Shown here one piece after another: positions 3,739-26,024 of a stretch of DNA of 64,000 bases. How positions within the stretch are numbered: the first letter of the stretch is position 1; every line of letters starts with the position of its first letter. This DNA is from Halorussus rarus. GTDB taxonomy: Archaea; Halobacteriota; Halobacteria; Halobacteriales; Haladaptataceae. The position numbers were made by a program, and so were the translations under genes. A model generated the notes under the pieces. It searched no databases. It was given only the letters and a program-made list of their open reading frames with translations, and was not told the DNA's origin. The stretch is from NCBI RefSeq assembly GCF_003369835.1, contig NZ_QPMJ01000003.1:186001-250000 (forward strand), given 5' to 3'.

Positions 3739-3790
3739 CCACTTTTTGCTGCGGTCGCGCCCCCAGAGGCGCTCCCTTGCAAAAACGTGG
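3739..3790 (+). terminator. Imperfect inverted repeat with T-run downstream of carS
   Basis: Directly after carS, CCACTTTTTGC (3739-3749) pairs imperfectly with GCAAAAACGTGG (3779-3790), with GC-rich sequence between. The T5 run at 3743-3747 is a plausible archaeal termination site. A second, perfect dyad of 10-bp arms around one base (3800-3809 and 3811-3820) follows. The citrate synthase gene at 22-23 kb is followed by a similar TTTTGC...GCAAAA arrangement. Confidence 0.4.
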
Positions 3791-4027
3791 GAAAAACACC
3801 GTCAGAGCGACGCTCTGACGAGCCGTCGTTCGCGCCGCTCACGACGACACTTCGTCACCCCCTCACTCGCGCCTCCGGCGCTCGTCGAGGGTTCCTCGTG
3901 CCGCTCGCTCACTGCGTTCGCTCGCGGTGCAGACCGGGACTGCATCCCCCGACGCCGACCGCCGCACGACCCGGCCGGGAGTCGAGGTGTCCTGAAAATT
4001 TAAGCGCCCCGTCTCGGAATCACGGCC

Positions 4028-22335: not shown

Positions 22336-23475
22336 ATGTCAGACGAGGTCAAGAAAGGGCTGGAGGGCGTCGTCGTCGCAGAATCGGGACTCAGCTTCAT
22401 CAACGGCGACGAGGGACGCCTCATCTACCGCGGGTACGAGATCGAGGACCTCGCCCGGAACGCGAGCTACGAGGAGGTGCTCTACCTGCTCTGGCACGGT
22501 GAACTCCCGACGCGCGACGAGCTCGAGGCGTTCTCGGAGTCGATGGCCGCCGAGCGAGCCGTCGACGACGACGTGCTCGACACGGTCCGGAAGCTCGCCG
22601 AGGCCGACGAGGAGCCGATGGCCGCGCTCCGGACCGCGGTGTCGATGCTCTCGGCCTACGACCCCGACGACTCCGAGGCCGACCCTACCGACCGCGAGAT
22701 CAACCTCCGGAAGGGCCGGCGCATCACCGCCAAGATGCCCACCATCGTCGCGGCGCTCAAGCGCTTCCGGAACGGCAACGAGGCGGTCGAGCCCCGCGAG
22801 GACCTGAGCCACGCCGCGAACTTCCTCTACATGCTCAACGACGAGGAGCCCGACGACGTGCTGGCCGAGACGTTCGACATGGCGCTGGTGCTCCACGCCG
22901 ACCACGGCCTGAACGCCTCGACGTTCTCCTCGATGGTGACCTCCTCGACGCTGTCTGACCTCCACAGCGCCATCACCAGCGCCATCGGGACGCTCGCCGG
23001 CCCGCTCCACGGCGGCGCCAACCAGAACGTCATGAAGATGCTCAAGGAGCTCGACGAGAGCGGCAAGGACGCCAAGACGTGGGTCGACGACGCCCTCGAC
23101 CGCGGCGACCGCATCATGGGCTTCGGCCACCGCGTCTACAACGTCAAGGACCCCCGCGCGAAGATCCTCGGCGAGAAGAGCGAGGAGCTCGGCGAGGCCG
23201 CCGGCGACACCAAGTGGTACGAGATGTCGGTCGAGATCGAGGAGTACATGCAGGACAACAAGGGGCTGGCGCCCAACGTCGACTTCTACTCGGCGTCGAC
23301 CTACTACCAGATGGGCATCCCCATCGACCTCTACACCCCCATCTTCGCCATGTCGCGGTCGGGCGGCTGGATCGGCCACGTGCTCGAGCAGTACGAGGAC
23401 AACCGGCTCATCCGGCCGCGGGCGAAGTACACCGGGTCGGACCACGAGGACTGGGTGCCGCTCGACGAGCGGTAG
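22336..23475 (+). CDS. citZ: Citrate synthase
   Basis: A 379-aa type II-like citrate synthase condensing acetyl-CoA and oxaloacetate at the entry of the citric acid cycle. The three catalytic regions are visible: HADHGLNAST near residue 180-190, GGANQNVMKML with its upstream HGG near residue 217, and GFGHRVYNVKDPRA near 258-271; the catalytic Asp lies in PNVDFYSAS near residue 316. Length is typical for archaeal dimeric enzymes. A methylcitrate synthase activity cannot be excluded by sequence. Its last 26 codons are duplicated downstream (23572-23649). Confidence 0.95.
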   Translation: MSDEVKKGLEGVVVAESGLSFINGDEGRLIYRGYEIEDLARNASYEEVLYLLWHGELPTRDELEAFSESMAAERAVDDDVLDTVRKLAEADEEPMAALRTAVSMLSAYDPDDSEADPTDREINLRKGRRITAKMPTIVAALKRFRNGNEAVEPREDLSHAANFLYMLNDEEPDDVLAETFDMALVLHADHGLNASTFSSMVTSSTLSDLHSAITSAIGTLAGPLHGGANQNVMKMLKELDESGKDAKTWVDDALDRGDRIMGFGHRVYNVKDPRAKILGEKSEELGEAAGDTKWYEMSVEIEEYMQDNKGLAPNVDFYSASTYYQMGIPIDLYTPIFAMSRSGGWIGHVLEQYEDNRLIRPRAKYTGSDHEDWVPLDER

Positions 23476-23513
23476 GACTGCGAGCGACCGTCCCGCTGCG
23501 GCTGTTTTTGATC

Positions 23514-23568
23514 AACCTTTTGCCAGCGCCGGAGCGAGCGAAGCGAGCGACGAGCGCAGCAAAAGGTT
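23514..23568 (+). repeat. 10-bp inverted repeat flanking a GAGCGAGCGAAGC-type tract
   Basis: AACCTTTTGC (23514-23523) and GCAAAAGGTT (23559-23568) are perfect inverted repeats. Between them lies a degenerate GCGAGCG tract, a sequence type common between haloarchaeal genes. Its position between the end of citrate synthase and the duplicated fragment suggests a terminator hairpin, or one edge of the event that produced the duplication. Confidence 0.5.
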
Positions 23569-23571
23569 GCG

Positions 23572-23649
23572 GACGACCGGCTCATCCGGCCCCGGGCGAA
23601 GTACACCGGCTCGGACCACGAGGACTGGGTCCCGCTCGGCGAGCGGTAA
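23572..23649 (+). pseudogene. Diverged copy of the citrate synthase 3' end
   Basis: About 78 bp repeat the last 25 codons plus stop of citrate synthase (original 23398-23475). Seven codons differ across the aligned ends: CCG/CCC, GGG/GGC and GTG/GTC are silent, AAC/GAC and GAC/GGC change residues, GAG/GCG lies at the boundary, and the stop is TAA in place of TAG. Half the changes being silent suggests that the copy once belonged to a functional, related citrate synthase gene instead of having drifted as junk. No start or upstream coding part is present, so it is a remnant. Confidence 0.7.
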
Positions 23650-23733
23650 CGTAGTCCAACGTTCTCCGCTTCGGACCAGACGGCCGTGAGCACGACCGGA
23701 ATCGCCGAGTCTCTGTGGCGAACACAGGCGGTG

Positions 23734-25086
23734 TCACTCCCCTTTCGTCGCGAACCACCGTCTCAGGGCGTAGCCGGCGGCCCCGAGGGAGGCGAGTCCC
23801 GCCGCGATGCCCACACCCAGCCTCCCAGCACCCGGTAGGCCGCCGTCCCGGTCCGTCTCGATGTCCTGCGGGCCGGTCCACCCCTCGTGGTGGCCCAGCG
23901 TTCCCAGGTTCACGCGCGAGTCCTCGCTCGCCCCCGTGACGCCCGCGTCCAGGGCGTAGACGTTGCCATCGTTGCTCCCGACGAAGATGGTCCCGTCGAC
24001 CACTGTCGGCCCCGAATCGACGGGCCCGCCGGTCCCGAAGCGCCAGCGCTCGGTCCCGTCGGTCGCGTCCAGGGCGACCACGTCGCCGTCGCGGTTGCCG
24101 AGGAAGACGGTGCCGCCGGCCACCGTCGGCGACGACCCGACCGCTCCGCCGGTTTCGACGCGCCAGCGTTCGGTCCCGTCGGAAGCTATCGCGTACACGC
24201 GACCGTCCAGACTCCCAGCGTAGACGATACCGTCGGCAACTGTTGGCGACGAGACGACCATCGCGTCGGTCGCGAACCGCCAGCGTTCGGTTCCGTCGGT
24301 CGCGTCCAGGGCGTAGACGTTGCCATCGTTGCAGCCGACGAAGACGGTTCCGTCGGCGACGGTCGGGGACGAGAACACCGCGTCGCCGGTGTCGAAGCGC
24401 CAGCGTTCGCTCCCGTCGTCGGCGTCGATGGCGTACGCGGCCCCGGCGTCGGTTCCGACGAAGACGGTGCCGCCGACCACCGTCGGCGACGACCCGACCT
24501 GGTCGTCGGTCCCGAACTGCCAGCGTTCGCTCCCGTCGCTCGCGTCTATCGCGTAGACGCGACCCGACTGATTCCCGAAGTAGACGGTGTCGTCGACCAC
24601 CGTCGGCGACGACCACACCGCCCCCGGGCGGCGGTCCCCCGTGGCCGCGTCGAACTGCCAGCGTTCGCTCCCGTCACTCGCTTCCAGCGCGTACACCTCG
24701 TCCCCGCCGCTCACGGCGTACGCGGTCCCGTCGACGACCGTCGGCGACGACTGCACGGCCGCCGCCCCGTCGCTCCAGCGCTCAGTCCCGTCACCAGCGG
24801 CGAGCGCGTACGTGCGGTCACCTCCGGCGAACACGATGCCGTCGACGACCGTGGGGGACGAGGGACCCCAGAGGCCGGTTTCAAAGCGCCACTGCTCCCT
24901 CCCCGGTTCCGTTGCGGTTGCACGACCGGGGAGTGCGTCGGTCGTGAACACACCAACACCGATTCTGGCCGTCGCCCGCAGTACGTCGCGGCGTTCGAGT
25001 CCCCGATCGCTCGATGGGTGCGATCCGGCCGAACTCCTAGTCGGATGTAATTCCACTGTTACTTCCCCGGATGACTTCCCGGTCAC
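23734..25086 (-). CDS. Secreted PQQ-type beta-propeller protein
   Basis: A 450-aa protein with a Tat-like N-terminus (ERRDVLRATARIGVG), eight or so PQQ-type blades and a C-terminal membrane helix (GRLGVGIAAGLASLGAAGYALRRWF) ending in a short basic tail. Each blade repeats a SSPTVVDGTVF-like strand, VYALDA and GTERWRF, so the domain is a WD40-like, PQQ-dehydrogenase/BamB-type propeller anchored to the outside of the cell. No catalytic dehydrogenase residues could be recognised; a binding or scaffold role is likely. The ATG overlaps the stop of the small gene upstream (ATGA at 25083-25086), so the two are coupled. Confidence 0.85.
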   Translation of the reverse strand: MTGKSSGEVTVELHPTRSSAGSHPSSDRGLERRDVLRATARIGVGVFTTDALPGRATATEPGREQWRFETGLWGPSSPTVVDGIVFAGGDRTYALAAGDGTERWSDGAAAVQSSPTVVDGTAYAVSGGDEVYALEASDGSERWQFDAATGDRRPGAVWSSPTVVDDTVYFGNQSGRVYAIDASDGSERWQFGTDDQVGSSPTVVGGTVFVGTDAGAAYAIDADDGSERWRFDTGDAVFSSPTVADGTVFVGCNDGNVYALDATDGTERWRFATDAMVVSSPTVADGIVYAGSLDGRVYAIASDGTERWRVETGGAVGSSPTVAGGTVFLGNRDGDVVALDATDGTERWRFGTGGPVDSGPTVVDGTIFVGSNDGNVYALDAGVTGASEDSRVNLGTLGHHEGWTGPQDIETDRDGGLPGAGRLGVGIAAGLASLGAAGYALRRWFATKGE

Positions 25087-25571: not shown

Positions 25572-26024
25572 ATGGACGTCTTCGTCTACGGAACGCTGAC
25601 CGACCCCGAGCAGATCGCCCGGGTCGTCTCGGAGTTCGAGTTCCGCGGGCCCGCTGTCCTGGAGGGCCTCCACCGCGTCGACGGCGAGTACCCCACGCTC
25701 GCGCCGGGCGGGACGGTGCCGGGGCGGGTCCTCCGGACCCCCGAGGTCGAGGCGCTCGACGCGTACGAAGGAGTCGCGACCGGACTGTACGTCCGGGTGT
25801 CGGTCCCGCTGGTCCGCGGTGAGTCGGGGGACGACTTCGCCGGCGAGTCGAACGCCAACGGTGACGAGTCGAACGCCGATACCGGCGAGCGCGAGGTCGA
25901 CGTGTACGTCGGCGACCCGGACGCCCTGGGCGCCGACGTCGAGTGGCCCGCCGCGGAGCCGTTCCCCGCGGCGGTCGAGCGATTCTGTCGCGGGAACGAG
26001 GTCGTAGTTCAACCGAGGCCGTGA
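25572..26024 (+). CDS. Gamma-glutamylcyclotransferase-family protein
   Basis: A 150-aa protein with the GGCT/AIG2-like fold. The N-terminal MDVFVYGTLTDPEQIA motif forms the substrate loop and LDAYEGVATGLYVR near residues 63-76 carries the catalytic-region Glu. An acidic low-complexity insert (ESNANGDESNADTGERE) separates the last strands, as often seen in haloarchaeal versions. The family turns gamma-glutamyl amines to 5-oxoproline; haloarchaea contain gamma-glutamylcysteine, a possible substrate. Divergent from the small membrane-protein gene. Confidence 0.85.
   Translation: MDVFVYGTLTDPEQIARVVSEFEFRGPAVLEGLHRVDGEYPTLAPGGTVPGRVLRTPEVEALDAYEGVATGLYVRVSVPLVRGESGDDFAGESNANGDESNADTGEREVDVYVGDPDALGADVEWPAAEPFPAAVERFCRGNEVVVQPRP

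Follow-up and report, generated by a model that had tools for sequence, protein, structure and literature searches.

The window, by which we mean the whole 64,000-nucleotide stretch analysed here, lies in a 4.37 Mb genome and carries on its plus strand the citrate synthase gene citZ (22336..23475; 379 aa, stop codon TAG), taken from the open reading frame list and matching the haloarchaeal CitZ model NCBIfam NF041301 with 729 bits against a cut-off of 550. Self-comparison revealed a direct repeat of the gene end. The functional end of citZ (copy 1, 23397..23474, plus strand) spans the 25 final codons plus bases 1 and 2 of the stop codon. A second version lies at 23571-23648 and agrees with it at 73 of 78 positions, with five mismatches, a period of 174 and a spacer of 96 bp; the duplication is far beyond chance (blastn E = 9e-31 within the locus). 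Copy 2, the displaced end (23571..23649, plus strand), is probably not a gene; it closes with its own stop codon, TAA in place of TAG. The repeat and the differing stop codons had already been described in the sequence-only reading, whose coordinates and distance of 97 bp proved correct within one base. Three features, all on the plus strand, separate the copies: the last base of the stop codon followed by 29 bp (23475..23504), a gap that is longer in the two related genomes G007 and G014; a palindromic element (23505..23569) that begins with a T5 tract, has the arms CAACCTTTTGC / GCAAAAGGTTG and belongs to a dispersed Halorussus family (74 bits with the covariance model R1, whose alignment includes this very copy); and a junction base (23570..23570) between the right arm and copy 2, within AAAGGTTGCGGACGACCG. 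The inverted repeat AACCTTTTGC/GCAAAAGGTT between the copies occurs once in the window and was reached in 0 of 100 shuffles. A search of 23300-23800 against Rfam gave no match up to E = 1, and RNA folding of 23470-23660 was unexceptional (z -1.56, with 10 of 200 shuffles equally stable). Directly behind the citZ fragment, on the minus strand (23734-25086), a 450-aa protein with tandem repeats spaced about 120 bp is encoded, for which no match was found in the stretches behind citZ of 14 relatives.

The sequence-only reading had taken the copy differences to be largely third-position, as between two functional homologs, and had raised the prospect that the fragment groups with a different lineage. 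The codon positions of the five differences are 1, 3, 3, 3 and 2, and three of the changes are silent, so third positions do account for three of five; this is no excess over chance (P = 0.21), and the homolog reading does not follow from the window's copy alone. As for lineage, alignment put the fragment with the citZ of its own species (73 of 78 bases, against at most 64 for the gene ends of each of 14 relatives). Copy 1 is nearer than copy 2 to 11 of the 14 species, with two ties and one species to which it is farther, and the drifted member of the pair is therefore copy 2. The sequence that follows copy 2 matched none of the seven relatives tested. A diversity-generating retroelement was also considered and rejected, the differences showing no adenine bias (two A/G and three G/C changes in the window).

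A close citZ (at least 80%) is present in 15 of 18 Halorussus genomes, in one of them partially, while the only copy in the other three is near 50%. Behind citZ, a clear second gene end was found in three of the 15, namely the window's genome (G000), G007 and G014, and in every case it is adjacent to the gene; the stretches searched, 20 kb long in 13 genomes and 6 and 4 kb long in two, contained no distant tail copy, the window's genome included. Pfam scanning of 10 of the 14 longer open reading frames listed behind citZ in G012 and G010 detected no integrase and no transposase, two of the 10 being without a family, and the inserted stretch itself is too short to encode a recombinase. Within this coverage, an element integrated at citZ, which the sequence-only reading had offered as an alternative, found no support. 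The same palindrome precedes the citZ copy in all three genomes, and the junction AAAGGTTGCGGACGACCG occurs exactly only at these three citZ junctions among 392 genomes of the order. In a tree of 14 species the three do not group, and each copy is nearest its own species' citZ, in G007 by one base only; G014 additionally carries a third, decayed copy (by eye). In-frame read-through of copy 2 was tried as an explanation and dropped, the spacings not always being multiples of three (174 and 219 at citZ, 128 at the tiaS-like gene of G002). About 1.8 kb behind the citZ of G007, a further palindrome copy seems to stand in place of the initial codons of a gene that resembles the open reading frame at 25573-26024 of the window (L033:16867-16932), and the same stretch holds a long run of 11-bp tandem repeats (L033:6540-6795).

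To describe the palindrome as a family, we scored 150 candidates per genome with R1, which gave at least 296 matches in the 18 Halorussus genomes (E up to 0.001), a count that is a lower bound. The ten genomes from other genera of the same taxonomic family have 0 to 4 matches each (E up to 1e-4). In an R1 alignment of 20 copies, 95% of pair cells are paired and two pairs covary, while one of the 14 pairs is unpaired in 11 of 20 copies. Dispersed in many copies between genes and with conserved arms, the palindrome resembles intergenic repeats of the REP type. Exact palindromes outside the genus number four among the 392 genomes, and in none of the four is the right arm followed by a gene-end copy. 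Of 156 copies, 21 place the right arm 0-2 bases from a stop codon that closes a convergent open frame of 150 codons or more, and the protein ends found there recur between species; on these grounds, the palindrome probably also serves as a transcript end. An integron attC site came into question as the arms end in CAAC/GTTG, and was dropped since the arm ends vary (GTTG, GTCG, GTTC). The window holds a second, weaker palindrome copy (3739-3796, minus strand, 42 bits). A convergent open frame has its stop codon 1 base away from this copy, which has no duplicated gene end beside it.

The citZ repeat is one case of a wider Halorussus pattern. Among 166 distinct palindrome copies with flanks, mostly the best-scoring ones and so not a sample that gives an unbiased rate, 19 are followed by a copy of upstream sequence that starts 1-8 bases after the right arm; places that appeared more than once for one copy were excluded before counting, as were three weak overlaps on the opposite strand. 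Random flank pairings yielded 5 of 820, one of them strong, and a local-alignment test gave 19 observed against 0.5 expected (n = 163). When the start was left free over 300 nt, in a comparison of 600 nt to the left with 300 nt to the right of each palindrome for direct repeats of at least 20 nt, 19 of 22 repeats still began at base 1-8 after the right arm. The joint at the base of the right arm is fixed. The left side of the element, in contrast, varies: inspection of the 19 cases by eye showed no left end common to them, although some share a longer left part, and the second joint usually falls within the last 23-113 coding bases of the same gene, which survives. Gene-end copies measure 23-152 nt and repeat units 100-263 bp. 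The targets are citZ (three species), hpt (six), a tiaS-like gene, elp3 and 6-phosphogluconate dehydrogenase (two each), and, once each, a glyoxalase-type gene, dph6, a tRNA end and a gene of G002 (L255) that we take to be thiolase-like. One protein per gene was scanned to identify seven of the genes, and the thiolase and tRNA were assigned by eye; the tiaS-like protein falls below its NCBIfam cut-off yet has Pfam TiaS domains. Copies on the other side of the palindrome, on the reverse strand, were limited to two weak ones (L129, 25 nt; L177, 22 nt), the rest being the same repeats detected again. In the open literature searched, we recognised no earlier description of palindrome-linked gene-end copies.

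To decide which copy is native, the flank after each was compared with a relative that lacks the palindrome. The flank after copy 2 matched the relative far better than that after copy 1 for citZ (G007/G016, 85 versus 8), dph6 (G002/G016, 103 versus 10), the tiaS-like gene (G007/G016, 70 versus 10) and hpt (G005/G008, 44 versus 9, from base 56 on), where shuffles reach at most 17. The displaced downstream copy stands in its native context in these four gene/species cases, and what was inserted is therefore the upstream copy together with the palindrome. For hpt of G004, the flank was unmatched in both relatives compared (G007 and G010). The clearest case is dph6 of G002, which has a sister species, G016, in the one close species pair of the sample. 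The gene bodies are 95.3% identical over 700 nt, and the displaced copy, which follows G016 together with its flank, is 94.7% identical (107/113), whereas copy 1, the present gene end, reaches only 87.9% over 99 aligned bases, with 18 mismatches that all lie from +44 on. There is one mismatch in the 101 bases from -58 to +43, and a patch of seven mismatches from -136 to -94. No donor of copy 1 was found, the best full-length match being 87.6%. The claim of the sequence-only reading that one allele took over and left the old tail behind is accordingly supported for the phenomenon as a whole, through dph6 of G002, the native flanks at hpt of G005 and, in G007, at citZ and the tiaS-like gene, and differences that are mostly silent. 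It gains no such support at the window's own citZ, where the fragment is nearest its own gene, has drifted and has a flank unmatched in the seven relatives tested.

Plain tandem duplication of the gene end with its palindrome, by hairpin-induced slippage or unequal crossing-over and with later decay of the second palindrome, would not yield the flank of a palindrome-less relative after copy 2, as seen in the four cases, and leaves dph6 unexplained. As a general account we consider it quite unlikely, although several loci do fit it. At hpt of G003 there are two identical units and a decayed third. In the thiolase-like gene of G002 the two copies are identical, and sister G016 has the left part of the palindrome and no clear second copy; both loci look like local, tandem copying. 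The decayed third citZ copy in G014 points the same way, as does a gene end of G002, described below, that is copied in direct tandem and lacks the palindrome. Inspection of hpt in 17 species (by eye) found the palindrome behind the gene in eight and none in nine, the window's genome among them. Behind the palindrome nearest hpt, six species have a second copy, G014 a decayed copy and G013 a doubtful trace; G015 has a second palindrome without a copy. In G016, one stretch (L286) breaks off within the end of hpt, as though the repeat had interrupted the assembly.

We then asked how the two copies differ. At coding positions, 14 countable cases other than dph6 have 24 differences, 16 of them silent, a count that omits L179 (indel), L136, L171 and L255. 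If the first 8 bases are set aside, the silent count is 11 of 13, against 23% predicted for random change (P = 4.9e-6), although the species cases of one gene are not independent and the 8-base cut was chosen after viewing the data; with dph6 added, the silent count is 20 of 33. With differences that are mostly silent, the copies look as if they had diverged at a time when each end was still being used. Often the two copies carry unlike stop codons, and most of these remain stops. The tiaS-like copy of G007 carries an indel plus a missense change. These patterns bear on the alternative that a palindromic element transposes near stop codons with a long, variable target-site duplication, so that the second gene end stems from the same genome and the copies are differentiated later by cross-species recombination. 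The fixed right end, the 23-152 nt copies flanking the element and the identical copies in several cases (L133, L205, L216, L136, L255) all agree with transposition, but it is at odds with dph6, where copy 1, unlike copy 2, departs from the sister species, with the frequently different stop codons and mostly silent changes, and with the lack of a common left end by eye. On balance we regard transposition as unlikely.

Insertion of an allele's end before the native one explains the best-resolved loci. For the window's citZ, where the type of event is read from an anatomy identical to that of the resolved cases, our preferred interpretation, held tentatively and at somewhat less than even confidence, is that the fragment is a gene end displaced by such a recurrent palindrome-linked event. 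The inserted stretch would comprise a 3' end and stop codon of the same gene, a brief 3' untranslated segment and the terminal palindrome, and would enter in front of the native gene end; the gene would stay intact, as the new stretch supplies its own end, and the old end would remain as a remnant behind the palindrome. Haloarchaea are polyploid and can fuse. We infer as the most likely route an excursion, by template switching or end joining, between two alleles that share a cell, in which a strand would exit the gene near the start of the tail, copy the related allele through the stop codon and palindrome, be released at the base of the palindrome and rejoin at the exit point. More broadly, and as a possibility that we rate as rather doubtful, Halorussus may swap the ends of conserved core genes through palindrome-terminated insertion that needs no recombinase of its own: copying of the incoming allele would start within the gene and run as far as the base of a terminator-like palindrome, and the product would be placed before the native end, so that function is kept and the old end becomes a fossil. 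The outer end of the palindrome would then be a natural point of strand release, and the loci would record template switching between species.

REP elements, to which the palindrome was compared, are mobilised by the RAYT (Y1) transposase. REPs occur in bacteria and archaea, one class within 15 nt of stop codons, and they resemble the Halorussus family as short dispersed palindromes near gene ends (PMC12306157, accessible part). The Halorussus palindrome differs in that its right end is a fixed junction in 19 copies, whereas the accessible part of PMC12306157 mentions no link to a second gene-end copy. Haloquadratum walsbyi harbours PATEs, MITEs, small mobile repeats and deletion-coupled insertions, and it shares with Halorussus non-coding palindromic mobile repeats in a setting of foreign DNA uptake by haloarchaea; but according to PMC3119063, PATEs lack target duplications, insertions are coupled to deletions and direct repeats are usually shorter than 20 bp. 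Integrative elements were compared as well. In E. coli, the e14 element restores the 3' end of its target gene icd, and the Halorussus loci are alike in that a new gene end is supplied and the old one displaced, as seen in four gene/species cases. The same likeness extends to islands in tRNA genes, which restore the 3' end of their target (PMC4383910, accessible part). Unlike both, the Halorussus repeat unit spans 100-263 bp, the open reading frames scanned contain no recombinase and one palindrome serves many genes. Could the repeats nevertheless be relics of site-specific integration, left by a small circular or integrative element that used the gene 3' end as attachment site and lost its body? 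The gene end restored with silent changes and the old end displaced, as in the tRNA-gene islands of the accessible part of PMC4383910, would suit such a relic, as would the duplicated tRNA ends with other spacers. We nevertheless think it very unlikely, given the same palindrome in eight protein genes without a common junction core by eye, the lack of integrase or transposase domains in 10 of the 14 longer open reading frames behind citZ of G012 and G010, and the lack of distant citZ tail copies in 15 genomes. What looked like an odd repeat behind a single gene thereby becomes, on the interpretation that we prefer, a genus-wide recombination mark at conserved gene ends (citZ, hpt, elp3, dph6). 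If the proposed mechanism is true, archaea can swap gene ends while keeping the gene whole, and every such event leaves behind a fossil and an exact junction. The palindrome loci offer a testable system in which to ask how palindromes guide the joining of DNA in archaea.

Finally, 1.2 Mb of G002 was scanned for near-tandem repeats independently of the palindrome, and 25 were listed, six of which were read by sequence. One is a protein gene end with the palindrome, that of the tiaS-like gene; another, near 140.9 kb (L322, 140865-140998), is a direct tandem copy of a protein gene end without the palindrome and with a short inverted repeat of its own; and two are duplicated tRNA ends with other spacers, near 670.0 kb (L348) and 1115.3 kb (L370). 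R1 finds four palindromes in the same 1.2 Mb, one of them with a gene-end copy. From these counts, duplicated gene ends are rare, enriched at the palindrome and not confined to it, those without it lying mainly at tRNA genes. At the tiaS-like gene, G002 starts to diverge from G016 some 80-120 bases upstream of the repeat. Comparison of L131 (G002) with L310 (G016) also showed that G002, at its displaced gene end, lacks some 500 bp that G016 has behind its tiaS-like gene. Further tRNA 3' ends, duplicated like those of L348 and L370 147-218 bp downstream and with other non-coding spacers, were seen in G003 (L031:15080-15324) and G012 (L037:9306-9572). The duplicated tRNA ends resemble small attachment-site relics and possibly form a parallel class of the same event.
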